The position numbers and the translations under genes were made by a program. A model generated the notes under the pieces. The model was not told the DNA's origin and did no database searches. It saw only the letters and a list, made by a program, of their open reading frames with translations. Source: Apoderus coryli (Eukaryota; Arthropoda; Insecta; Coleoptera; Attelabidae). Taken from it: a stretch of DNA of 64,000 nucleotides. Location: positions 29,899,715 to 29,963,714 of the forward strand of contig OU452200.1 of assembly GCA_911728435.2 (NCBI GenBank). Direction: 5' to 3'. Below are positions 1,561 through 61,275 of this stretch, piece after piece (position 1 is the first letter of the stretch; the number at the start of each line of letters is the position of its first letter).

Positions 1561-1775
1561 TTTATTTACGAATTGCTTGTTACATAAAGTAACAAGCCTT
1601 TTAGTTATGTTGGAAATTTGTTTCACACTACCATGCTTTCACCAGACGGGACGTTTCGTTGATCCATAACTCATCAGTGGTGATCGGCAAGCAGTGTGAC
1701 CCAAATTTCCAACATTTACGAAGAGCTTATACTAGCACGAGAGATGACTGACAAAGAGATGTTTTTGGCGACATC
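1561..1775 (-). repeat. Hammerhead-ribozyme repeat, copy B
   Basis: Member of the ribozyme-bearing repeat family, read on the minus strand. From its 5' side it has a GATGTCGCCAAAAACAT head end near 1760-1775, an ACTAGCACGAGAGATG-type spacer (plus-strand sense, about 1731-1747), the ribozyme at 1612-1710, and a 3' hairpin CTTGTTAC / GTAACAAG near 1574-1597. It shares nearly all of the ribozyme, spacer and 3' hairpin with the copy at 42915-43149. It sits between a transposase relic and a non-LTR relic. Confidence 0.75.
1612..1710 (-). ncRNA. Hammerhead self-cleaving ribozyme (type I), copy B
   Basis: Read on the minus strand. Core CTGATGA is at 1677-1671, followed by stem II (GTT/AAC plus one A-C mismatch, loop TGGAT) and then GAAA. 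Stem III is ACG/CGT with loop TCC, and the cleavage triplet GTC precedes TGGT. Stem I pairs ACCA with TGGT next to the core. After an asymmetric internal loop it continues with TCACACT/AGTGTGA and GGAAATTTG/CAAATTTCC (the outermost bases at 1612 and 1710). All invariant core bases of hammerheads are present. The stem I internal loop and loop II could make the tertiary contact that known fast hammerheads use; that last point is inference. Confidence 0.85.
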
Positions 1776-2149: not shown

Positions 2150-2420
2150 CAAGGAACTCACTGAACTCACACGCAGTGGATATAGTGAATTGTTGTTCAC
2201 TCGGCATATTACCAACAGAAACTAGATGTCGCCAAACACATACTTTTACATCTCTGTACTGTGTGGGGTATATACCACAGTATTTAGAGAGTTTGGCTGT
2301 CAACTACCGACCGATCACCACTGATGAGTCGTGGATCGAGGAAACGGTCGTCTGGTTAAAGTATCGTAGTTGGCAGACAAACTCGTGAAATCAAGTCTTG
2401 TTTCGTTAAACGAGCCCATT
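2150..2420 (+). repeat. Hammerhead-ribozyme repeat, copy D (divergent, with head module)
   Basis: Most complete plus-strand copy. The head module at about 2170-2250 contains CAGTGGATATAGTGAATTG and ACTAGATGTCGCC. The ribozyme is at 2291-2382. A 3' hairpin at about 2396-2414 pairs CTTGTTT with AAACGAG. Compared with copies A and B, the outer stem I and the 3' hairpin differ in sequence but keep pairing. The head module also occurs, without a ribozyme, at about 16430-16535 on the minus strand. Confidence 0.7.
2291..2382 (+). ncRNA. Hammerhead self-cleaving ribozyme (type I), copy D
   Basis: CTGATGA is at 2321-2327 and GAAA at 2341-2344; predicted cleavage is after C2352 in GTC. Stem II reads TCG/CGA with the closing pair changed to G-G. 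Stem III is ACG/CGT with a 2-nt loop, or AC/GT with a 4-nt loop. Inner stem I is ACCA/TGGT. The outer stem I pairs 2291-2307 (GTTTGGCTGTCAACTAC) with 2366-2382 (GTAGTTGGCAGACAAAC), with two mismatches in 17. That sequence differs from copies A and B, so pairing was kept while sequence changed. The G-G pair in stem II may weaken activity. Confidence 0.75.
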
Positions 2421-2768
2421 TGAAATAAATTATAGTTTAATTTAAAAATAAGTTTTGTTGTATTTTGTTTAAATTGTTCAAGATATGTATATGTATTCCA
2501 TATATATTTTGTGTGTTTTCATTTGTGAAATAACACCATTCGAGCTTTAAAAAAATTCCAAATAATTTTTCACTCATGCGTGTTTTCTTTGCAAATTATA
2601 TGAAACACACAATCGTAAAAAGTTATCGATAATTTTAAAGCTACTGTCGTATTATCCCCAGTAGAAATGGAAGTACATCCAATATAGTGTATTCTGCTGT
2701 AGATTCGTTGATATTTCCATTTGATTATTATAAGAAAAGATTAGAAATATCTTGTTTCCGGTTCATAC
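2421..2768. other. Intron sequence, nothing recognised
   Basis: AT-rich segment between ribozyme repeat D and the exon ending at 2769. No coding block or repeat with a partner in the window was seen. The exon's donor gtatga (minus strand) lies at 2768-2763. Confidence 0.5.
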
Positions 2769-5585: not shown

Positions 5586-6365
5586 TAATAAATGAAAAAT
5601 ACTTTAATGGCGCATAGCGGACTAAAATGCTGGTTTTACCTACACAAGGAATTTTGTTTAATTTAGCAGGGCCGCAGTCTAATTCAATAGAACCAGACCG
5701 AGGCATGGGTCGACAGATACTGACGAATTCGTTTCGCTCTTGTTATGAGCTCGTCAGAGTACCATAGTCGTTGCCCATCTACAAATATCAGCCTGCATTT
5801 AAGCACAAAAGGATACACAACAGTAGATACATGTAAACCCGTATCATCTACATGTACATAGTAATGCATATCCCAGACCATGCAGAGGCCGAACAAACTC
5901 AATGTATAGGTAAAACCAGTCGTATAAATAGAAATAAAAATAGCATGAACACAAAACGCTAGCAGGAGACCATTTTATCCTTCTTCCAGCATCTCCCAAA
6001 TATTTGGGTTTCAGCAATGCTCGGACGGTGGTCTCCAAGCGTTCTGTCGTCGATGTTTTGGCCTCTATATGGTATGGGATATGCATTACTATGTACATGT
6101 AGATGATACGGGTTTACATGTGTCTACTGTTGTGTATCCTATTGTGCTTAAATGCAGGCTGATATTTGTAGATGGGCAACGACTATGGTACTCTGACGAG
6201 CTCATAACAAGAGCGAAACAAATTCGTCAGTATCTGCCGACCCATGTCTCGGTCTGGTTCTATTGAATTCGACTGGGGCCCTGCTAAATTAAACAAAATT
6301 CCTTGTGTAGGTAAAACCAGCATTTTAGTCCGCTTTGCCATTAAATTATTTTTCATTTGTTAATA
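5586..6365. repeat. Foldback element with ~290-bp inverted arms
   Basis: The left arm (about 5586-5890) is repeated inverted at about 6060-6365 with only scattered mismatches; the spacer is about 170 bp. Outer ends pair AATGAAAAATA with its complement. Subterminal landmarks are GCGGACTAAAATGCTGG and ACCTACACAAGGAATTTTG. A shorter relative with the same arms lies at 49149-49410. There is no transposase inside; reading frames across the arms are mirror images of each other and not genes. Probably a non-autonomous foldback DNA transposon. Confidence 0.8.
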
Positions 6366-15996: not shown

Positions 15997-17066
15997 TCCA
16001 GGGAGGAAATTTCGCCTAACTTTCAAGCTCGATATTTTTGGATCCAGACCAAATATCAACCTTCGGTTTTCACGGGCTGACAGATTGCCTTTTTGTGAAA
16101 AACACTGAAATTTAAAAAAAAAATCAGCTTTGAAATTCTTTTTTATATAGGGTTTTAAAAAGTCCATGATTTTGATTCCAATTTTGAATGTGTGTAACGT
16201 TCTGACAAAAGTTTTTTAATTTTGTTTCTATTATGCGCCTTTTTAATCAATGATCTTCTGCAAAAAATGTGATTTTTCGAAATTTATATAGGTACCTGCC
16301 TTAGTTTAAAAAATATCGATATTTTTCTTCTTATTGGTAAACTTTGTTAGCAATTGTCATATCTTTCGGTTTGTGTATTTATTGCGATTAAAAATATCGA
16401 ATACCTCAATGATATGCTGTACAGTGGCGTGCGAATAAAAATTAATAAAAGAATATGTTGGCGACATCTAGTTTCTGTTGATAATATGTCAATTGAACAA
16501 CAATTCACTATATCGACTGCGCGGGAGGCAACTGATAATAAATGTACATTATGCATATTTATTATATAATTAAGTCTTGTTAAAAAAGCTCATTTCCAAC
16601 AATTAATATTAATGCCATTGAAAAGCTTAAAATATTCCGAATTTGTTATCATCTGCTGATTTTACTTGTCTTTTTACTCCAACAAAATCATTTTACTGTC
16701 AACAGATAACTATACTTATTATTAATTAAGATTTTTTAGTTTACGTTGTTCATTTCTTAACTTTTAGTTTACTTTGTTGTTTAATTTCAGTTTGCTAAGT
16801 TTTTTAGTGCACTTTGTCTAGGTAGTTCACTAATTATGATTCGTTTTACTTAGGTATCTACCTAACTTTTGTTTGTTTTTTTAATTTAATAAAAATGAAT
16901 AGCAACACTTTTTGTATTTTGTCGTGTGTTTTGCATTAAGTTAACATACAAAGGATTGTCTTTCACAAAAAGGCAATCTGCCAGCCCGTGAAAGCCGGAG
17001 GTTGATATTTGGTCAGGTTCCAAAAATATCGAGCTTGAAAAGTAGGCGAAATTTTCCTTGCTCGAA
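15997..17066. mobile_element. Non-autonomous element with ~110-bp inverted ends
   Basis: The left arm at about 15997-16110 contains AATTTCGCCTA, TCAAGCTCGATATTTTTGGA, ACCAAATATCAACC and CAGATTGCCTTTTTGTGAAA. All recur in inverse order and complement at about 16952-17066 with few changes. The interior (about 840 bp) holds a ribozyme-family head module at about 16430-16535 and otherwise AT-rich sequence with no transposase. It sits in the intron between the host exons at 13973 and 18842. Confidence 0.65.
16430..16535 (-). repeat. Head module of the ribozyme repeat family, no ribozyme
   Basis: Read on the minus strand it contains CGCAGTCGATATAGTGAATTG and then CAACAGAAACTAGATGTCGCC. These match the head of ribozyme repeat D at 2170-2250. 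Sequence after GTCGCCAACAT diverges, so the ribozyme part is absent. Both strands carry overlapping open frames here, which are incidental. Confidence 0.6.
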
Positions 17067-17479: not shown

Positions 17480-17592
17480 CATTACCACTGATGAGCTGTG
17501 GATCAACGAAACGGCCCTTCTGGTGAAAGTATGGTAGTGTGACACAAATTTCAAACATAACTAAAAGTCTTGTTATTTTATGTAACAAGCAT
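17480..17592 (+). ncRNA. Degenerate hammerhead ribozyme, copy C, with 3' hairpin
   Basis: CTGATGA is at 17488-17494, then stem II GCTG/CAAC (one C-A mismatch), loop TGGAT, GAAA, and TGGT after the cleavage position. The triplet before cleavage reads TTC instead of GTC, and stem III ACG/CTT has lost a pair, so cleavage is doubtful. The 5' outer stem I is missing: the left neighbour differs from copies A and B. The 3' arm AGTGTGA..CAAATTTC and the terminal hairpin near 17569-17590 (CTTGTTA / TGTAACAAG) are kept. Confidence 0.65.
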
Positions 17593-17602
17593 TTTATATC
17601 TT

Positions 17603-19234: not shown

Positions 19235-19516
19235 CTGGAAATTGAAACATTAGAATTATTGTTTTGATTCCTAAATGGTTTCTTTTGAGTCACACACAAA
19301 AAGGCAAATACGCCCCAAAATACTACTATGATTACATAGCACCCGCTATAATACATATGAATAGGATATTTTTTGAAAACCTACTTAATTAGTGTCCGAA
19401 ACTATCCATATAAAAATAGTCAATCATCTGTTTAAATTATGATTTATATTTGAAATTTATAAATTTGAGTTTCCTTTTATTCAGTTTTTTAAAGATTTAC
19501 AAACTATACTACATAC

Positions 19517-20547
19517 CTTATTTGCTGGAAGATCATCATATTCTTCCTCATCTTCATCGTCAATATACTCATCATTTTGTATATCATTATCATCACTGTT
19601 TTGATGCCCTTCCTCAGATTCTTCCAAATAATCTGTAGGCGAGGGTGTGTCTTCACTATCATAATCCCTATCATCATTTGGCAGTGGTTGTGAATTACTT
19701 TTGTTAGAATTGCTTTGATCTTTTACACTTTCTTGAATTACTTCTACATTATTCTTTGCATCATTCAATTCCTCATTGGCATTGATAGGTTCTTCTAATA
19801 ATGAATCAAAATCCACACTCTGCTTCCGAGAATTTGGCACCTTTTTTAAACCAAATACATTGGATTTCGGAGATATTGAAGCTGCTTTTAGTTTTTGTGG
19901 TTGTTTTGTTGTACTATAAACTTCACCGTTATTATCCACAAAATAATCATTTACCCGAGTATTTGAGGCATCTTGTGCACTTGGTGCAAAAATTCTCGTC
20001 CTATGACTCAAGAAGTTTGATCTTTTGTCATCCTGTTGTCCTCCAAATGCATTTGACGTAACCTCGCGTGTTTTTGTTCCAAAATTACTAGGTGCTCTAA
20101 AGGCTTGTTGCTGCGGAGGTATCTCTAAAGGATCATTTAATGTTACCTGACCCAAAAACGTTTCAGTTTGAGATGGGTGGTGCGAGTGCGTTTGAGAAAA
20201 CAAATGTGAATAGTTAGGTCGAATCGTTGAGGGTGATGCTAGTTGCTTTGAAGGTCTAAATCCAACTGGACTATTAACTATGCGATTCTGAAATCGTTGG
20301 TTAGAACTAGATGTAGGAGCGTTATTACGTTGAAACTGTGGAAGTGATTGCTGTAAATGAATTGGGAAATCCGATGTTTGGAGATCTCTGTTTTGATAGT
20401 AGGGATCAAATGTTTGGAAACCATTTCGTGTTTGGAATCCTGTAGGTGTTTGACGGAACGGAATGATTTCTGATGGATTTACGTAATCTTGTTGATCTTG
20501 TTGATAGTACTCATTACCACCTGGTGCTGTTAACAGGTATTCTTGTC
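19517..20547 (-). CDS. LLPPGYK-repeat gene, large Gln/Ser-rich and acidic exon
   Basis: Largest exon of the gene, 1031 bp on the minus strand. The acceptor ctttacag lies right of 20547 and the donor gtatgt left of 19517. It opens with the last two bases of a split Gly codon (GQEYLLTAPG) and ends at a whole codon (LPANK), in phase with the next exon. About 343 residues: Gln/Asn/Tyr/Phe-rich text with repeated QTR.GFQTF-type phrases, a His/Gln/Pro-rich middle, FVDNNGEVYSTTKQPQK, and an Asp/Glu-rich end (YIDDEDEEEYDDL). No catalytic domain, membrane segment or cysteine cluster is visible. It looks like an intrinsically disordered extracellular or matrix protein, which is inference from composition. 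An upstream exon must exist because the frame enters in mid-codon; it was not found within the window. Confidence 0.8.
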
Positions 20548-20778
20548 CTGTAAAGAAAATAAAATATTTGAGCTTAAAGCTTAGCATAGTAGACATACGT
20601 ACACAGTAAATGATAAGAAGTTATTTGAAATTAAAACAATATTTTTTTATACAGGGTGTAGGTTTTATAATCAATGGCGTAGTCAAGAAGGAATTTCCTT
20701 TCATCAGTAAGTAATAATGTAAGCATCACCTAAAAATGCAGTTGATATTTAGTTTTCTTTTCTTGAGCCTTATTACTT

Positions 20779-21176
20779 CAATATTTAGATTTGAAACTTC
20801 TTGGGATGAGGCTCACAAATTATACACAGGTTAAATAACGACTTGTTATTTAATGTGAAAACATTTTGTTAATAAACAACGTTTCGGAAACGCACATCTT
20901 CAGGTAATATTCATGCAAAAATCGTCTAGTGGACAAGTAGTGTTTTTTTGGTTTGTATTATACTGTTTTTACAGTTACAAAAACAGTATAATACAAAAGA
21001 AAACACTACTTGTCCACTAGACGATTTTTGTATGAATATTACCTGTAGAAGGCAACAGATGTGCGTTGCCGAAACGTTGTTTTTTAACAAAATGTTTTGA
21101 CATTAAATAACAAGTCGTTATTTAACCTGTGTGTAATTTGTGAGCCTCATCCCAAGAAGTTTCAAATATAAATATT
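20779..21176. repeat. Foldback repeat, ~190-bp arms, 8-bp loop
   Basis: The left arm 20779-20970 is repeated inverted at 20979-21176 with small differences and a loop ACAGTTAC. Arms contain CTTGGGATGAGGCTCACAAA, GTTATTTAA, and CCTGAAGATGTGCG..CCGAAACGTTG (read on the minus strand on the left arm). That last motif pair, CTGAAGA followed by CGAAACG, resembles terminal sequences of Penelope-like elements in animals; recognition is by memory and uncertain. Confidence 0.7.
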
Positions 21177-23149
21177 AAAAATGCAGTGCCGTGTACTCAA
21201 TTCTAGGGGGATAGGTAGTAAATTTTACTACTTAAAGACAAAATACTTTCAAAAAATTGAGTTTTCCTAGTAATCACGTGGTTCAAGTTTAAATTCGATT
21301 AAATCTTGTTCTACAACGCCTGAGGATCTTGGACTATAGCATTTGTATAATCATCTAATTTATTCTAAAATGTTGTTTACTTGAATGAAGTAATCATAAA
21401 AATATTGACTTTCTTGTAGAAAAACGTCAACATTTTCACAAAAAAAAAATTAGTAAAAAAAAGATAAAAGCAATTCTAATAGAAGTAGGTTTAGGTATCG
21501 GAAATTCTTAACAAAGTCCCTTTAAATTTTATAGGGAATCTGAAAAAAATGTGTTTATTCCATTTAAAATAACGAAGTAGATGGTATAATCGGAAGTAAT
21601 ATAAACCCGGAAATCGTACATCAATATACAACCTTCGCGATAATATCGAATCCCTAAGTTTCAGAAACATACCTTTTGTTGTTTCCCAGAACTTTGAATA
21701 GGCCACTCAGGATGAATCACCCTGTAGGTATGTATGGCTTTTTGCACAGTATTATTCAAATTCAAATTTACAATTCAATAATTTTTTTTGTGTAGTACCG
21801 TTTTCGGCAACTTTGTCAAACCGCTATTAATGCCCCTTGAGATTTTTCTTTTAACGCAAAGCACTATTTTAAATTAAATTTCTTCTATTCTCTATAATTC
21901 TGACCAATTTTATAACTTGTGATATTTTCACTATTGTCATAGATTTCGTCATTAGTTCATAAATAACGATATTCGCATTCAAAAAGAATTTTAATATATT
22001 GCAGATATTGAGGAAGTAGTCTATTTTAAGAATTTTTAACAGCGTGGCTGTAAAAAGCTAAAGTTCACGTAAAGGTTAACCATAATTTCTAAATATGCCC
22101 CTTAAAGTATATTACAGATTGCAAAAATCTCTCCAATATTAATTACCTAACAGGAACAAACTGAAGAACTAGATGGCAATCATAAGTTGTACTAAATCAA
22201 AAGGTTGTTCGTTGTATTATCCATTGAACGTATATTTGAAAAGGTATACATAGACCCCACTGAACATATAAAAGAAGGAAGCCATTATCCATCTCATAGC
22301 TGAGAAAAATCGCACCACCGGCACCGCCCCACAGCGTACATACAGCAAAACGACTATATTGTCGGCACTTAGAAGTAGAAAAGTTTGAGCTCCGTTACCT
22401 TCATTACAGCTATAGAGCGTATGTATGTGTAAAAACCACCCAGGCCAGCGGATTCATAGACTGCTAAGAATATGCACATATCAGCATACACTCGTACTTT
22501 TTCCCCCAGAAGATCTATTCTCTTGGGGTTTCTGTCTTTTAATACCGTGTTTACTATAGTTATATTTGCGTATTATATTCATGTTTTGTGTTAACGTTGA
22601 AAGACGTTGTACTCTATAATACACGTTATAATATGCATCCCATCGTTATTATAAATCATATTATAAGATTTGTATAAACTACAAAAATACCTACATATAA
22701 GGTATGTATGACAAGTAAGCCGTATTAGAACATAATATTATATTTTATTATTATATGTAATGGTCCGTCTCTATGGATATGCACAGGGAGAGCCTACCAT
22801 ATATAGGGTAAGGCTAACAAATTTAACGATACCTGATAACAATAGAACAGGACTTAGACAAGAAACAAGGGTTATTATATGTACACCAAGAATGGGCAGT
22901 AACACGACCGCGAACTTTAATTCTTATAATGGCGAGTTTAAATCTTTCATCGCATTATTTAGTCACTGCACGTGTACAGATTTAGCGGTGTCGGTTCACA
23001 GTTAATTTGATAGTGGACACTAGCCATACATGAAAACCGAATACACAAATTTGGAGGCCAAATGTATGTAACCACAGTTTTTACCACCCAATCTACCCAT
23101 CATTGTTATTACATTTCAAAAGTATTTCAGATTAATCATATGTATTTCA
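21177..23149. other. Intergenic or far-upstream intron sequence
   Basis: No gene recognised. AATCACCCTGTA near 21716-21727 is the right outer end typical of DD41D-type elements, with no matching left end (TACAGGGTG near 20654 is followed by different sequence). An open frame at 22760-23005 (MVRLYGYAQGEPTIYRVRLT) has no recognisable relatives and is probably chance. Confidence 0.4.
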
Positions 23150-42358: not shown

Positions 42359-42914
42359 TATTACAATATGTCAAACATTAAAAATCTAAGAATTTCCAAA
42401 GTGAGCATGTGAAAACTCCTTGATTTTGATAGGTTATGATTATACTGCCACTCCAAATTAGAGTCTATTTATATTTTGTCCAAAGGCTGAGGAGATTCAG
42501 CGTACTACTCTATTATTGAACTGTATTTTAAATTAAATGGCCAGAGTACAGAGTACTATCTCGCCAAACATTGCAGATGTAATTCTAAATATAATAGCTC
42601 TAGATACAAGGAGCATTCAGAATTGATGATTCATAAGATGTTTAACAGCTGTCTATCTCTTGGCTTTGATAGATTGATTGATAATAGTTATTTACGTAAT
42701 TAGTGGGATATGGACATTATTAACGCACACAACATAATTCCTACCCCACGTATTACATACAAAATTTTATATACAAATGTTTTTAGTACTAGAAAATACA
42801 TAGGTATTTCAATTCAACGTATTGTTAATAATATTGACTGAGAAGACAAGGTACCGGTGACCATATTTTCCGACCATAGCAACAAAGACAAACAAAGCCG
42901 TGTAAATAAAATAA
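42359..42914. other. No gene seen
   Basis: AT-rich interval leading to ribozyme repeat A; nothing recognised. Confidence 0.4.
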
Positions 42915-43149
42915 ATTCATGAATTGCTTGTTGCATAAGGTTACAAGACTTTCATTTATGATTGAAATTTGTTTCACACTACCATTTCGCACTACCAGAC
43001 GGGCCGTTTCGTTGATCCACAACTCATCAGTGGTGATCGGCAGGCAGTGTGACCCAAATTTCCAACATTTACGAAGAGCTTATACTAGCACGAGAGATGC
43101 ATAACAAAGGGAAAGTCTTGTTACTTTATGTAACAAGCAATTCATGAAT
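42915..43149 (-). repeat. Hammerhead-ribozyme repeat, copy A, bounded by its own inverted 3' hairpin
   Basis: 235-bp unit whose two ends are inverted copies of TTCATGAATTGCTTGTT plus the hairpin CTTGTTAC..GTAACAAG and ACTTTC (about 36 bp). The minus-strand ribozyme lies at 42964-43062. Relative to copy B the spacer (ACTAGCACGAGAGATG, plus sense) is the same, but the head module is replaced by an inverted copy of the 3' end. Such a structure can arise by foldback or twin-primed reverse transcription, or it may be a true terminal-inverted-repeat element; the sequence alone does not decide. Confidence 0.75.
42964..43062 (-). ncRNA. Hammerhead self-cleaving ribozyme (type I), copy A, best preserved
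   Basis: Minus strand. CTGATGA (43030-43024), stem II GTTG/CAAC with loop TGGAT (4 pairs), GAAA (43010-43007), stem III ACG/CGT with loop GCC, GTC ending at 42998, then TGGT. Predicted cleavage falls between 42998 and 42997. Inner stem I is ACCA/TGGT, then a large internal loop, then TCACACT/AGTGTGA and GAAATTTG/CAAATTTC. All bases required by the hammerhead core are present with correct topology, so activity is expected. Very short stem III is a known trait of hammerheads in animal retroelements, which may cleave better as dimers. Confidence 0.88.
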
Positions 43150-43194
43150 AAAACCTCTCGCAAGGGATTCGGGCGTATCTAGTGTTGGCAATAG

Positions 43195-43270
43195 GATATG
43201 ATGGAGAACTGTGTTTCACCGGCCATAGTGCCTGCTCACACTAGATGTCGCCAAAAACATATCTTTGTAT
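43195..43270 (+). repeat. Possible head fragment of the ribozyme repeat family
   Basis: CACTAGATGTCGCCAAAAAC followed by ATATCTTTGTATC matches the junction between head module and spacer in copies B and D. It is on the plus strand, opposite to ribozyme A next to it. Sequence left of it is only weakly similar to the head. Confidence 0.45.
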
Positions 43271-43308: not shown

Positions 43309-44080
43309 TAAATGAGTTCAAGCGAAGACAACTTCCCTTCGGACATTGAAAATGCAGCTTCAAGTGTTATTTTAAATCTGGTGCCAGACAAATTACAAGA
43401 AAAATACCAGCTGGCTTATGATCGTTACGAGAAATGGTGTAGATAAAAGAATGTTGGAAACATGAGTAGTGAAAAAGCACTATTAGTATATTTTAACGAG
43501 ATATGCAAGACACAGAAGCCTTCATCCCTATTCTACGTTAAAAACAGAATTTCATCAAGAAACACGTACATTTTTTTTAAAGGTGAAATAACAAATAACC
43601 AGAGTTTTAACAAATGCGGACGATGAGAGATATTTGTGCATTAAGGTAGGTAAGACACTTGTGTAAATTATAAAAAGGTGTATTCATTATGGTTATATTG
43701 ATCTTTTGTTTGGCTGGCGTATGTCGGCGGCAATAGCTAACAAATATGTTGGTAGAAGAATATGCTATCAAATCACTATACCAAATACCAAAACAAAAGT
43801 GTCTATCCATCTGGATATATTGACGGCGTGAATCTAGTTGAAGTCGTCAGAAATTACGTTAAATTGAGACCTAAAAATTGCGACCATAACCGATTTTTTG
43901 TTGGATAGGACTGACAAATGCACACAACAACCAATTGATATAAATACTATTGGTAGTGTGCCAAAATTAATTGCCCAATTTGTTGAATTGCCTAATCTAA
44001 GGAAGTACACTGGACATTGCTTTTGAAGATATTTAACCACACTTTTGGCTGATATTGCGGCAGATCTTTTAACTATAAAT
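43309..44080 (+). pseudogene. Crypton-like tyrosine recombinase relic
   Basis: Starts at an ATG near 43312 (MSSSEDNFPSDIENAASSVI), then LVPDKLQEKYQLAYDRYEKW, stop, NVGNMSSEKALLVYFNEICK, KPSSLFY. Later blocks are LTNADDERYLCIKV, TIPNTKTKV, INTIGSVPKLIAQFVELPN and KYTGHCF, stop, RYLTTLLADIAADLLTI. The order matches the Crypton/KIAA1958-like tyrosine recombinases of insects, including the H-x-x-R box (GHCFRR), where the first Arg is now a stop. The region of the first catalytic Arg is lost. Numerous stops and frameshifts make it inactive. Confidence 0.8.
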
Positions 44081-48066: not shown

Positions 48067-49148
48067 TATACAACAGGAGTAGGAAAAATATTATAAAAAA
48101 AATAATAATAAACATATTCACAATTAATAAAGCTGTAGATAATAAATTCTTGTTGTTATTGTTGTTCTGTCTTGTTATCTCTTAAAATGTTAAAATAAAA
48201 TCTGTTTGCTTACTTCGTCCAAGCCACTAATTTTCAATTCGTGTAACACCAAAATATACTTAAATGCAGCCTTTAATTTGGGTGTTATATTAATGATCGT
48301 AATACTGCTATAGTGTATCATTACCACAATTTTAGTATTTCCTATCGGATATTATTAACGCATAGTAAACCATAATCAAATCTGTCTACCATTAGTCATA
48401 TTCAGTTACAATAAAGATGACAACATAGATAGAGCTTTATGTTGTTCTATGAATATTCACGATCTACGCGTACTACTTTAATGCGTATGTCATGTTATTA
48501 TAAAGGGTGTTCTATGTACGTTGGATACTTATTTTAAATATATTCAAAATAAGCTTGTACAATTAGATTGATATGTAGGTATTATGACACATATCTTTTA
48601 TATTTTATCGAATAACTCAATCTTCATGATGAACTGGGTTGGTTGAGCTTTCAATTTTTTTCTAATTAAATATCGCAAATCTAAGTCTAGCTTCAGCTCG
48701 AAAGGAACACAGCACATGTTGCGCTGTTTCATTATACTCCAAGCACAAGAGTCGTTCAGAAATAGGTATGACTATTCAAATGACAGTGACCGGATTACTA
48801 TTCTGTCTAGTCTAAATCTAGCACAGCTAACCAGGAACACAATACAGTTACGCTGTTTCATACTAGTCAAGCCAAAAGAGTGGTTCAGAACTTTCTGAAA
48901 TATACACGGACATGATTCTTGAAACGCGATATGAACCGATTTATAATAATGTTCTTACGTTCTATACTACAGTTCAGATCATGTCCAACAGCTGCCTGGT
49001 TGTTCATTTTGTTATACGAGTATTAATAAAGTACTTCCAAATGTACCAAGCCTGGATGATTTGGCCTAAAGTTCTGAGCTTTTGCCGTCTTCCAAGTATA
49101 ATGTACGAGTATCTATTTGACGGTCCTGAACATTATAGCCATTATGAA
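48067..49148. other. No gene; imperfect tandem duplication at 48690-48900
   Basis: A block with GGAACACAGCACATGTTGCG, CTGTTTCAT and GAGTCGTTCAGAA is repeated about 125 bp downstream as GGAACACAATACAGTTACG, CTGTTTCAT and GAGTGGTTCAGAA. The rest of the interval is AT-rich and unrecognised. Confidence 0.4.
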
Positions 49149-49410
49149 ACATAATTTCGTAGCATAGCGGACAAAATGACTGGCTGTACCTCCACAAGGA
49201 ATTTTGTTTAATTTAGCAAAGCCTCGTCAGAGTACCATACTCTGACCAGCTCATAATAAGAGCGAAACGAATTCGTCAGTATCTGTCAACCCATGGCTCG
49301 CTCTGGTTCTACTGAATTCGACTGAGGCCCTGCTAAATTTAACAAAATTCGTTGTGTAGGTAAAGCCAGTCATTTTGTCCGCTATGCCACGAAATTATTT
49401 TTCATTTATA
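49149..49410. repeat. Short foldback relative of the element at 5586-6365
   Basis: It carries the same subterminal text, GCATAGCGGACAAAATGACTGG..AAGGAATTTTG on the left and its inverse on the right. It folds around GTCAGAGTACCATACTCTGA, with the interior largely deleted. About 260 bp. Confidence 0.7.
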
Positions 49411-51644: not shown

Positions 51645-52157
51645 TATTTTTAGTACTAAATAGATTTATTATTCCAATTTGTCACGTTTTTCTACTAAAC
51701 ATTCTCTTTTGCATCCTATGTGCTCCTTTTAGGTCACTGCGGTCTCCATAAATTGAGAAATTAGTGCTAGTAATTAGATCGGCACATTACATTAAATTAA
51801 TTATCTGTGATGGTAATTATTTACTGTTGTTCCAAAACTTAAAAGGTGTACAGATTTGGTACATAATCGCTTATTAGCTAATGGGAATTAATTGGTAGTC
51901 TATAATTATAGAATAGAATCTTCGTTAGGAAAGCACGTAAGTATTTATTTTGGTATTTTTTATACTGTAACAAAGTTTGTTGTATATGATATGAAAAGAA
52001 TAAACTAAAAAATCTTGTTATTTGCGAATGGACAAAAAGATGTATTACCACTTTTTTCAATTCACAATAACCATTATTTGAGGTCCACTACGTACGACGA
52101 CTTTTGTTTATCAATTTATAGAAAGCCCTGTGTGAAGGTCAATTTTATCTCTTTATA
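51645..52157. other. Spacer between two mariners
   Basis: AT-rich, nothing recognised. Confidence 0.45.
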
Positions 52158-53431
52158 CGAGGGTTGCCTTTTATATTTCGGGATTAGAGAACAAAAACAA
52201 ATATTAATCATCGAAAATCACATTATTGTTTTTAAAAATATTCCCCACTTTTGCATGCGTTTGAACCAATTGTCGAAGCACTTTTGCCACCCTGATTGAG
52301 GTATCTCAAAAACATGCATTCTGAATGCAGCAACCGCTTCTTCAGGTGTCGAAAAACGTTGACCTCTCAGTTTGTTTTTTACGTACGGGAATAAAAAGAA
52401 GCCAATCGGTGCCAAGTCAGGACTATACGGCGGATGACTGATCAAATCGATGTTTTGGGTACTCAAAAATGCAGTTGTGTGAACCGATGTGTGAGAGCTC
52501 GCATTGTCGCGGTGAAGAGTGATCCGTCTTCGGCGTTTGGTTTCTGATTTCTTGGAAGACAAATGGACAAATGGTTGTGTACCACTCAGAATTGACTGTT
52601 ATGCGTTGTTCTAGTGGTACGGTTGCGACATGTCCAGTTTTTCCGGAAGAACAGGCGACCATTTGCTTGGAAGTGCTTCGTGCGCGAACAGCTTTTGTTG
52701 GATTTGGCTCATCTTGAAACACCCATACAGTCGACTGCTGTTTACTTTCGAGCTCATATGCGTAAATCCACGATTCATCACCTGTCACGATGTCATAGAC
52801 GTGTTTCGAAGCAACGTGATTGTATTTTTTGAGCATTTCTTTCGACCAATCGACACGAGCCTTTTTTTGAGCGATTAACAAATTATGTGGGATCCAACGC
52901 GAACAAATTTTTTTGACAGTCAAATGTTTAGGCAATATTGAATGTATTCTGGTACCACTAATGCCTAAGATTGTCTCAATCTCTTGATAGGTCACATGAC
53001 GATCTTGCAATATCAGTTTCGTGTACAGCACAATGGTTTTCGGAACAACAATTGATTTTGGATGACCTTCACGAAATTCATCTTGGAGTGAACTACGACC
53101 ACGATTGAATTCACCATACCATCGATAAACACTGGTCCTTGATGGAGCTTCATCGCCAAAAATTGAATTAAGTTCATCCATGCACTGTTGCTGAGTTAAT
53201 CCACGTCGAAAGTTGTAAAAAATAATCGTTGAAAATGTTCACGATTTAATTCCATTTTTGGGCCGAGATGAATATTTTAAGTTACTGCGTAAACAACACA
53301 AATAGCGCTCGTATGTCAAAACGTTCTGAGTACGTATAACCTCAAAAATGTCCAACGTTACGATAGAGCTGTCAGTGGCCAGATTGCCACACCAGGGTTG
53401 CCAAATCCCGAAATATAAAAGGCAACCCTCG
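52158..53431 (-). mobile_element. Mariner transposon, sister copy 1, catalytic Asp lost
   Basis: 1274 bp with TA duplications and 28-bp perfect inverted repeats beginning CGAGGGTTGCCTTTTATATT. The minus-strand transposase has at least two frameshifts: one a few codons after the start (about 53232) and one near 52560. It reads MDELNSIFGDEAPSRTSVYR with HTH, first Asp VTGDESWIYAYE, second Asp HRDNASSH, and third-Asp block YSPDLAPIGFFLF, where the catalytic Asp is Gly. The nearly identical element at 58195 keeps Asp (APNDFF). Inactive. Confidence 0.9.
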
Positions 53432-53589
53432 TATTATCCATTATGTACAGTTATATTATTAGAGACCTAGAGACTTGCTACCAAACCATCCTGCGTCGTA
53501 TTTGTCAATTGAAGGAAAAGGAACGCCTGGCACATGGAGAAATGTGTTCTACGCCAGTTTGGCCATCAATTCGTTACACTAGTTGATTG

Positions 53590-57930: not shown

Positions 57931-58194
57931 TTTCCTATGAGCCTGTATAAACAGCCTCATTATCAACCAGGTATACGTGTGCTGTTCATATTGCCATGAA
58001 TACAAGACCACCACCTGCTAGGATCTTCCTTGATCGAAGCCTCGCAATTCCTTTTAATGTTACTTATAGCCCCCTATTGTAATGTAACGGAAAATGTCAA
58101 ATCAGAGAGCAACTCAAAAATTCTTCAGAACTACCCCACCTTAAGCAGGATATTTACAGTTTTCAGATTACTACAGCAATCCACCTTTCATATA

Positions 58195-59453
58195 CGAGGG
58201 TTGCCTTTTATATTTCGGGATTAGAGAACAAAAACAAATATTAATCATGGAAAATCACTTTATTGTTTTTCAAAATATTCCCCATGAAGATCTATACACT
58301 TTTGCATGCGTTTGAACCAATTGTCGAAGCACTTTTGCCACTCTGATTGAGGTATCTCCAAAATATGCAATCTGAATGCAGCAACTGCTTCTTCAGGTGT
58401 CGAAAAACGTTGACCTCTCAGTTTGTTTTTTACGTACGGGAATAAAAAGAAGTCATTCGGTGCCAAGTCAGGACTATACGGCGGATGACTCAACAAATGC
58501 TCTGGGTGCTCAAAAATGCAGTTGTTTGAGCCGATGTGTGAGAGCTCGCATTGTCGTGGTGAAGAGTGAACCGTCTTCGGCGGATGGTTTTCCTGATTTC
58601 TTGGAAGACAACTGGCAAACAAATGGTTGTGTACCACTCAGAAATGACTGTTCTGCGTTGTTCTAGGGGTACGGTTGCGGCATGCCCAGTTTTCTCGAAA
58701 AGACAGGCGACCATTTGCTTGGAAGTGCTTCGTGCGCGAACTACTTTTGTTGGATTTGGCTCATCTTGAAACACCCATACAGTCGACTGCTGTTTACTTT
58801 CGGGCTCATACGCGTAAATCCACGATTCATCACCTGTCACGATGTAATAGACGTGTTTCGAAGCAAAGCGATCGTATTTTTTGAGCATTTCTTTCGACCA
58901 ATCGACACGAGCCTTTTTTTGAGCGATTGACAAATTGTGTGGGATCCAACGCGAACAAATTTTTTTGACAGTCAAATGTTTATGCAATATTGAATGTATG
59001 CTGGTACTATTAATGCCTAAGGTTGTCTCAATCTCTTGATAGGTCACATGACGATCTTGCAATATCAGTTCGCGCACAGCATCAATGGCTTTCGGAAAAC
59101 AACTGATTTTGGACGACCTTTACGAAATTCGTCTTGGAGTGAACTAAGACCACGATTGAATTCACCATCACCTCATCGCCAAAAATTGAATTGAGTTCAT
59201 CCCTGCACTGTTGCTGAGTTAATCCACGTCGAAAGTTGTAAAAAATAATCGCACGAAAATGTTCACGATTTAATTCCATTTTTGGGCCGAGATGAATCTT
59301 TTAAGTTACTGTAAACAACACAAATAACGCTCGCATGTCAAAACGTTCTGAGTACGTATAACCTCAAAAATGTCCAACTTTACGATAGAGCTGTCAGTTG
59401 CCAGATTGCAACACCAGGGTTGCCAAATCCCGAAATATAAAAGGCCACCCTCG
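58195..59453 (-). mobile_element. Mariner transposon, sister copy 2, HTH deletion and frameshifts
   Basis: 1259 bp with TA duplications (58193-58194, 59454-59455) and inverted repeats as in 52158-53431, with one change in the right repeat (GGCCACC for GGCAACC). The minus-strand transposase starts at 59279 (MELNREHFRAIIFYNFRRGL) without the early frameshift of copy 1. It has lost about 28 bp encoding TSVYRWYGEF in the HTH, has a further frameshift near 59080 and a 4-bp deletion near 58495. All three catalytic Asp are kept (VTGDESW, HHDNASSH, APNDFF). Confidence 0.9.
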
Positions 59454-59455
59454 TA

Positions 59456-61112
59456 TAATTACTATATTTATTCATGTTGGATGTTCGAGTGCATAATGTC
59501 TTCGAATACGTTTGAAGAGTATTACAAAAATAAGATCAAAATAACCAGCAGAGTAAAAGATAAATTCTTTTGACCCTTTTATAGGGCAAACGAATTTGTC
59601 AGCTACGAGAAAATAAATAAAACGTATCTGCTGTTTTAGATTTGCATAAACTAAAAAAATTATTCGTTTTCTACCGACTTTGTGGCGTGAAAGAGATAAA
59701 ATGTATTCAAATTTATTCCATCAGAAGAATAGCAAAAATATTAAATGACAATTATTTCCCTATTTAGTGTTAATTAAAACGAAAAGAGATGAAATATAAT
59801 TTAATTTAAATCAAAAAAGTTTTTTTTTACTTTTATTTTTATGATAATTTAGAAACCGTTGTCGTTTGCGCTTATAAACGGTCTTGTTGTGTTGTTTGCT
59901 CTGATTACGATAAAAATAATTGAAGCGTAAATACAGCAAGGACATTTTCACGGTTATGGCAGAAATCTTTTAATGTCTAAGTACACTGCAAATACGAAAG
60001 AATTTTGTTTCTTGACATTGTAGTTGTAAAAGAAATAAAATCCTAATTTTGTCCGCTTCTAAGTACTATATTATTTGCATTCAAAATTTGCATTGAAAAC
60101 TGTTACATTCAAATAATTAAATTTAACATACATTAATAATTAACGTCATGAAAAGTAACTCTAATTAACACCTATCAATTATTACATTAAAGGTATTCTA
60201 AATCTAACTGACCTAACAACATAATCAGCTTCAATTCTAAATCATTTTGTGTGTATGTCGTAGTAAAGTATTTAAACACTCGGAGAGGGTACAGTGGCGG
60301 AGAAATATTTGTGTTTAAGCTATATGCCGCCAGTCGATTTATTTAAAACTCATATCTTTAGAGATCATCCCAAAAGATCAGAGATAATCAAAACTGAATA
60401 ACATTTGGTTCGTTCGTTATAAGACGATTTGGACTTTGTCAAATATATCTTATTTTTTCTTTTGGCACCTCTAGGATGATTTAGACTTACTTGGAAATAG
60501 TCTTTTGACGACAAATAATGTCGTTTTCACTGCAGCCTCACGAACTTATTGTGAACTAGACCTATGGCTAGTATAGGATGGCGTAACGTTGCAATATAAT
60601 CGATTATCACGTTCAAAGTTTAGGAAAGTTTTTAACAGTGCTTTGGTTTGCGTTCACCATTGTCCGGTACGTAATAAAATCTAGTCAGCTACTAGTGAAA
60701 GAGAGTCCTAAATTATCATAATAATAATAAGCATTTAGTCCCAACAGGTTAAACCCACTTACAGGAAATTCAATAAATACATTTTCGAATTAATTGAAAT
60801 GAGATACATATCAAATCAAGAGGAAAAAACAAACAAAAAAGCAACCAAATAAATACGTTACAAAACAAAACAATAAAAAAACTGATTAAATATTTCGGAA
60901 AAAAAATTAACTCACTCTGTCCAAGTATACTTTAAATTCTTAAAATAAATAAAATAAATAAACACTATTGACATTAAATACTACAAAAATAAATGCAATC
61001 AATATCAGTTCAATATTAAATAATAATCACTATCCATTAAATAAACTATCAGTAATAGCTGACAAAGTTGAGCCATGAATATCAAAATCACGACAACACC
61101 GATTGAAAATGT
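59456..61112. other. No gene seen
   Basis: AT-rich interval. A short run at 59470-59570 is open on the plus strand but begins inside the mariner inverted repeat and is not gene-like. No structural RNA found. Confidence 0.4.
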
Positions 61113-61275
61113 CACACATAAAGTAAACAGGACTTTGTAACAAAATATTAGTCCTGGCTGGGCCCACAGTGAACGTCGCGTCGCGTCGATTAAGCTAATC
61201 GACGCGACGCGACGTTCACTGTGGGCCCAGCCAGGACTAATATTTTGTTACAAAGTCCTGTTTACTTTATGTGTG
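61113..61275. repeat. Perfect palindrome: 80-bp arms, 3-bp loop
   Basis: Positions x and 122388-x are complementary from 61113 to 61192, with loop AGC at 61193-61195. I checked pairs at the centre, at 61141/61247, at 61151/61237 and at the outer end, and saw no mismatch on reading both arms. The inner 40 bp is GC-rich (GGCTGGGCCCACAGTGAACG, TCGCGTCGCGTCG) within AT-rich flanks. Arms carry no gene. Confidence 0.92.

Follow-up and report, generated by a model that had tools for sequence, protein, structure and literature searches.

The DNA of Apoderus coryli analysed here (64,000 nucleotides, hereafter the window) contains at 43 kb a hammerhead ribozyme motif embedded in a short repeat, and this raises the question of what kind of element the repeat belongs to and which enzyme inserts it into the genome. 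For animal retrozymes, the Discussion of a 2020 paper names LINEs or Penelope elements as candidate movers (PMC7229834), and the relevant part of a 2024 review still names the same two (PMC11722881).

The hammerhead motif

An earlier note made from the sequence had described a type I hammerhead on the minus strand from 43062 to 42964, and its core bases and three stems read as it described them. The motif comprises CTGATGA (43030-43024), a stem II of GTTG/CAAC with the loop TGGAT, followed by GAAA, a stem III of 3 bp (ACG-GCC-CGT) and a stem I built of ACCA/TGGT, TCACACT/AGTGTGA and GAAATTTG/CAAATTTC. From the sequence and the alignment, CTGANGA, GAAA and NUH come in the order expected of type I hammerheads, with three stems and an open stem I. 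The predicted cleavage point comes after the GTC, between 42998 and 42997 on the minus strand. The Rfam search that had been proposed as a check gave a mixed answer: the hammerhead model RF00163 gives minus 43036-42992 a score of 28.5 bits (E 3.1e-5 in a search of 271 bp), but this is below the curated cut-off of 34 bits, and the scan of the 64-kb window at gathering thresholds was empty. The 43-kb motif was also absent from a scan of the 64 kb that listed matches up to E 10. Two relatives elsewhere in the genome exceed the cut-off, with 37.4 and 34.4 bits among the 73 candidates that were scored out of 52198, and their sequences read as members of the same retrozyme families.

The second copy of the motif is present at 1612-1710, where the note had placed it, and the window contains two further copies beyond these (2163-2430 and 17481-17597, both on the plus strand). 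Folding energy lies far below that of shuffled sequences for the 43-kb copy (z -4.8) as well as for the 1612-1710 copy (z -7.1); the nested minimum-energy fold is a rival pairing and not the three-way junction. In an alignment with 24 other copies, most of which have TGGTGAAAGCATGG or a near form of it in the internal loop of stem I, the 43-kb copy is slightly decayed and has TGGTAGTGCGAAATGG there. The parts of these copies are collected in Table 1.

Table 1. Retrozyme copies of the window and their parts, in window positions
Feature	Position	Strand	Evidence
Type I hammerhead core	42992..43036	minus	RF00163 28.5 bits, under the cut-off of 34; sequence
Left arm of the insertion: from E1 through the terminal hairpin and the ribozyme into the head	42915..43099 (right limit approximate)	minus	segment maps and sequence
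Terminal hairpin, directly before E1 (E1 at about 42915)	42926..42949	minus	sequence
Right arm, opposite orientation: unit tail and head, ending at E2 (about 43268)	43112..43268	plus	segment maps
Second A-type copy, with the hammerhead at 1612-1710	1561..1775	minus	sequence and segment map
Diverged B2-type copy	2163..2430	plus	RF00163 22.4 bits, E 0.01
Ribozyme of the B2-type copy; stem II has a G-G mismatch at its base	2315-2358	plus	
Fragment from the head of a B2-type copy, with its end at E2	16446..16528	minus	segment map
Partial A-type copy, GTC damaged to TTC	17481..17597	plus	

Other repeats and frames were observed in the window. A second hammerhead-like family (CTGACGAGCTC..GAGCGAAACGAATTCGTC) lies in palindromic repeats at 5586-6362 and 49144-49405, and also at L102:870; two of its copies face outward at 5757 (minus) and 6193 (plus), the 49-kb copy is degenerate, and the scores against Rfam HH9 are 20.1 and 17.7 bits for a cut-off of 52. 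Long palindromes at 20777-21179 and 61113-61275 attract sub-threshold microRNA models, one pair of arms matching over 80 nt at 100% with 3 nt between them and the other over 123 nt at 95%. Two like copies about 6 kb apart, 52154-53437 and 58191-59459, with pieces that are 83-98% identical, contain frames that we take to be mariner-like. Finally, a host-like frame at 19481-20620 (minus) has two relatives among the matches listed, both from bruchid beetles.

The repeat is a metazoan-type retrozyme

That the motif sits in a small dispersed repeat, as had been noted, was confirmed at the scale of the genome (428 Mb, 129 contigs). When the 241 bp of 42910-43150 were searched against the genome, 93 stretches matched, with scores computed for 40 of the 2363 first-look candidates, and the core 17-mer of a sister subfamily, CTGATGAGTCGTGGATC, occurs at 2448 sites (1223 + 1225) of the 428 Mb, with 0 for its backward control. 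This count is that of the sister subfamily and not of the 43-kb copy's own version, which has TT instead of TC. A census of neighbours among the first 100 listed of the 2448 sites yielded 30 pairs less than 1 kb apart; 14 of the 15 close direct pairs are spaced by 331-341 bp and one by 476, a spacing of about 336 bp, and the unit measures 336 bp in subfamily B1 (L051) and 333 bp in B2 (L053). The head module and terminal hairpin of the earlier note both exist, but as parts of this one unit of about 336 bp, and the coordinates that it gave cover the ribozyme stem only, the whole two-armed insertion being 42915-43268.

No frame of at least 130 aa is found across 42915-43268; reverse transcriptase and GIY-YIG are not encoded there, so the element is not itself a member of the Penelope-like group. 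It is a metazoan-type retrozyme, with a non-coding unit of about 336 bp (within the 170-400 bp of the class), a type I hammerhead, direct tandem copies and thousands of copies in all. Retrozymes also have target duplications of more than 4 bp, and here exact duplications of at least 8 bp flank 36 of the 82 insertions that we mapped, against 2 of 82 in a control made with the flanks of different insertions. The suggestion of an undescribed repeat can apply to the family only; its class, the metazoan retrozyme, is already published (PMC7229834).

Subfamilies A, B1 and B2 can be distinguished, and both main copies of the window belong to A. With helices named by hand, 33 stem pairs are kept between B1 and B2 (21 are unchanged, 1 differs on a single side and 11 differ on both), and 35 between A and B1, of which 2 are changed on both sides. 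An earlier alignment gave 7 double-changed pairs versus 1.3 in shuffles, with 2-6 in slid structures and much of the signal coming from one diverged row. The stem-loop III of B1 and B2 is palindromic (ACGGCCGT). In amphibians, hammerheads that combine a weak stem III with a palindromic loop are described as working best as dimers (PMC7229834), and this may apply to the present ones too. In two of the samples defined below, the core is intact at 21 of the 24 loci taken consecutively and at 28 of the 38 found by similarity, counts that are not used as evidence since the consecutive loci were picked by half the core. The exact core pattern has one match in viral contigs, with no surrounding hammerhead and taken as chance, and a longer core has no match in bacterial and archaeal contigs.

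Two-armed insertions and two preferred ends

The 82 mapped insertions come from four samples: 39 from 38 loci found by similarity to 42910-43150, 24 from 24 loci at consecutive 17-mer sites on contig C1 (443,558-5,305,590), 15 from 12 loci with at least 2 sites, and 4 from the window. The similarity sample is somewhat biased toward the shape of its query and the multi-site sample toward multi-copy insertions, and blocks shorter than 100 bp, or at most 60 bp from a locus end, were left out of the end map. In 38 of the 82, the insertion is made of two arms placed head-to-head, with the RNA 3' sides outward; the other 44 show a single arm at the sensitivity used. The same orientation is found in the 17-mer census, where the close inverted pairs (first 100 of 2448 sites) are 15 outward and 0 inward.

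The outer RNA-3' ends fall at two places in the unit. Among 120 such ends, 69 are at E1 and 43 at E2, with 8 elsewhere, the E1 and E2 windows together spanning about 48 of the 336 unit positions. E1 is situated after the terminal hairpin (AACAAGCAATTC, then TTAAATAAAG) and E2 after the head (ACATCTCTTTCTCA, then ATC), at a distance of about 155-180 nt in the unit. The two-armed insertions (n=38) are divided into 28 with E1/E2 ends, 1 with E1/E1, 1 with E2/E2 and 8 with one end unassigned; the outer ends therefore differ in 28 of the 30 resolved cases. In the consecutive sample, 9 of 24 insertions are two-armed and 7 of these are E1/E2, and in two loci (L067 and L084) a short inverted E2 piece was also seen by eye. 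A rule by which start sites would follow a hairpin was considered and rejected: the stability before E1 is in the top 2% in A and B1, but E1 of B2 stands at 17% and E2 at 18-38%. A recombinase-like coding remnant (from 43313) was likewise rejected as a partner of the repeat, its apparent lead-in head being the E2 end of the insertion, so that the remnant is flank. Broken frames adjoin the insertion there, at 43313-43600 (plus), and presumably resemble a tyrosine-recombinase-type protein.

Target duplications of at least 8 bp are found in 22 of the 28 E1/E2 insertions and in 0 of the 4 window insertions, the one at 42915-43268 having 7 bp. Among those of at least 10 bp (n=29), 12 bp is the commonest length (11 of 29), and their A+T content is 88%, versus 65% for the loci.

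Inverted arms with target duplications are also what a fold-back DNA transposon, or a MITE carrying the hammerhead by chance, would leave. However, a MITE has two like terminal inverted repeats of fixed length, and here the outer ends differ (E1 vs E2), one-armed copies are frequent, and the 112 arms starting at E1 or E2 range from 17 to 1239 nt, with more than 340 nt in 40 of them and tandem units inside arms. Such a transposon is hardly credible.

LINE twin priming likewise leaves 5' parts inverted, with target duplications in a similar size range, so that a LINE moving the retrozyme would account for both the arms and the duplications. In that case the second start should lie at varied internal sites, whereas it is at the fixed site E2, and the Penelope elements of the same genome share the signature, as detailed below. 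We consider it very improbable that a LINE is the mover.

Arms, joints and the nature of the template

Of the 112 arms, 92 extend as far as the point where the ribozyme would cut (following unit position 261 or 262), and 0 of these 92 end within 4 nt of it. Because most loci were found via the core, read-through was recounted on 42 arms whose partner arm carries the core, and all 24 that reach the cut site pass through it. This means that the template was not a linear monomer cut by the ribozyme; it must have been either a circle or a multimer left uncut.

A Penelope enzyme could have copied, from two sides, the uncut linear multimer of a genomic tandem array, with circles and ribozyme activity irrelevant to mobility. 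Tandem arrays exist in the genome, the read-through fits this template as well as a circle, and the anole Penelope enzyme uses unprocessed RNA, ribozyme mutants inserting equally well in vitro (PMC11167929). Against it, the ribozyme stems covary between subfamilies, which points to a kept RNA function, though not to a role in insertion. We judge the linear multimer unlikely.

The two arms of an insertion are alike. Their identity has a median of 97.9% in 18 insertions (those of the 28 E1/E2 insertions with both arms and an alignment of at least 60 nt), and the best match of an arm is its own partner in 11 of the 18; 139 comparisons between insertions, which mix subfamilies, have a median of 75.8%. 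In L051 the arms are 100% identical over 675 nt; L051 and L052 share 99.3% identity over 700 nt, which shows that recent copies resemble each other in any case.

The joints between arms were analysed in the 28 E1/E2 insertions only. In 24 of them the joint links unit positions more than 15 nt apart and is non-palindromic, and 18 of the 28 have an overlap of 1-6 nt as judged from BLAST ends. Non-palindromic joints argue against one cDNA folding back and copying itself, the self-priming route proposed for rotifer Penelope in the relevant part of PMC3846280. Self-priming does explain head-to-head inverted arms, and near-palindromic joints occur in 4 of the 28 retrozyme insertions as well as in two Penelope loci, but the 24 distant joints and the differing outer ends (28 of 30) oppose it. 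We hold it to be improbable and, if the joint mapping is right, refuted as a general route here.

Penelope-like elements of the same genome

Neighbouring GIY-YIG pairs less than 6 kb apart are outward in 18 of 18 cases (150 of 1260 candidate places scored). One such palindromic Penelope-like element, L087, has arms that are 99.6% identical, with frames of 752 and 734 aa, the longer one containing RVT_1 and GIY-YIG. Close to both outer ends of L087 lies a minimal hammerhead (CTGAGGA...GAAACGCGCGTC). Among the 120 matches listed for the L087 protein, the best named relatives are in longhorn beetles and Tribolium, and lacewing, springtail and mosquitoes are also named. L088 has the same palindromic shape, and the frame tested had no Pfam match.

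Ten palindromes were examined for their ends. By script, 7 of the 10 have an extra 30-35 nt at exactly one end (the other has 0-4), with duplications measuring 10-13 bp; in L103/L104 the same pattern was seen by eye, making 8 of 10, and L097/L098 and L099/L100 gave no clear ends. Two of the palindromes were read through, and their joint is nearly palindromic, a form compatible with either self-priming or a shared template end. As an observation in its own right, head-to-head Penelope-like palindromes with a one-sided tail of 30-35 nt and minimal hammerheads near the ends were recorded at L087, L088, L089-L096 and L101-L104.

In rotifers, too, Penelope copies are described as having a tail on one side (PMC3846280). 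When purified, the Penelope enzyme of the anole both cuts and extends the two strands, its RNA has two start sites, the tail is the stretch between them, and the hammerhead is dispensable for insertion in vitro (PMC11167929). The retrozyme insertions match the Penelope copies of the genome in their architecture, with inverted pairs outward in 15 of 15 and 18 of 18 cases, respectively, and two-site ends. This shared rule, with two start sites that are both used per insertion, is the main evidence on the mover, and it suggests that Penelope machinery moves the retrozyme.

Several findings count against this reading. E1 and E2 are about 155-180 nt apart, versus 30-35 nt for the Penelope sites; the joints of two Penelope palindromes are near-palindromic; 10 of the 38 two-armed insertions lack the E1/E2 combination, and a single arm is seen in 44 of the 82; and retrozyme units compared with two Penelope loci gave nothing better than E 0.17 in these two. 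The dispensable anole hammerhead also counts against the mechanism set out below.

A proposed two-site mechanism

The scars show outer ends that cluster at two sites, with most two-armed insertions carrying one of each, together with outward-facing arms, target duplications, likeness between arms and read-through of the cut site. We find it fairly probable that they arise when a Penelope-like enzyme starts cDNA synthesis on both strands of a staggered break, using two sites on a single retrozyme RNA that is probably a circle. By analogy with known retrozymes, a multimeric transcript would cleave itself and be ligated into a circle. The Penelope-like protein would then make a staggered break in AT-rich DNA, leaving 3' overhangs of about 12 nt. 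These would be set on the same RNA, one at E1 (following the terminal hairpin) and one at E2 (following the head). Copying would proceed from both overhangs, often for more than one round, and the cDNAs would be joined head-to-head, producing two arms with their RNA 3' sides outward and a target duplication. In this scheme the circularity, the Penelope enzyme and the ribozyme activity are the parts that we infer.

A broader proposal, to which we give an even chance, is that retrotransposition of the Penelope class is two-handed, both 3' overhangs of one staggered break being set on two fixed sites of a single RNA and copied at the same time, that retrozymes exploit this as RNA circles made by the ribozyme, and that the scars record rolling-circle reverse transcription from both sides. 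The scars favour Penelope as the mover of retrozymes, and they suggest how it may act, with two start sites, one per target strand. The two-site model also bears on why Penelope copies are inverted, an arrangement earlier attributed to self-priming in the part of PMC3846280 that treats it.

Comparison with known systems

Metazoan retrozymes with type I hammerheads, tandem units and a suspected mobilisation by Penelope are published, in the relevant sections of PMC7229834 and PMC7761336. The present element is like the metazoan non-LTR retrozymes treated in those sections of PMC7229834 in its type I hammerhead, its unit length (170-400 bp there), its tandem copies, its AT-richness, its target duplications, its thousands of copies and the presence of Penelope in the same genome. 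The head-to-head two-armed insertions and two preferred ends set it apart from what these sections describe; a word search of PMC7229834 found no occurrence of 'inverted'. A search of open-licence PubMed Central found no report of head-to-head two-site retrozyme insertions, which is not proof of absence.

With the Penelope-like elements that have minimal hammerheads and pseudo-LTRs, as described in the relevant parts of PMC3846280 and in PMC11167929, the retrozyme shares outward head-to-head copies, target duplications, a hammerhead and two reverse-transcription start sites, the tail at one end of Penelope copies being 30-40 nt. Unlike these elements, which encode RVT_1 and GIY-YIG, the retrozyme codes for nothing, and its ends are about 155-180 nt apart in the unit. 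Finally, the pDo500 satellite of Dolichopoda cave crickets (PMC2837043, PMC2808323) is similar in that a hammerhead lies in an insect repeat, but it is a satellite family of another insect order.
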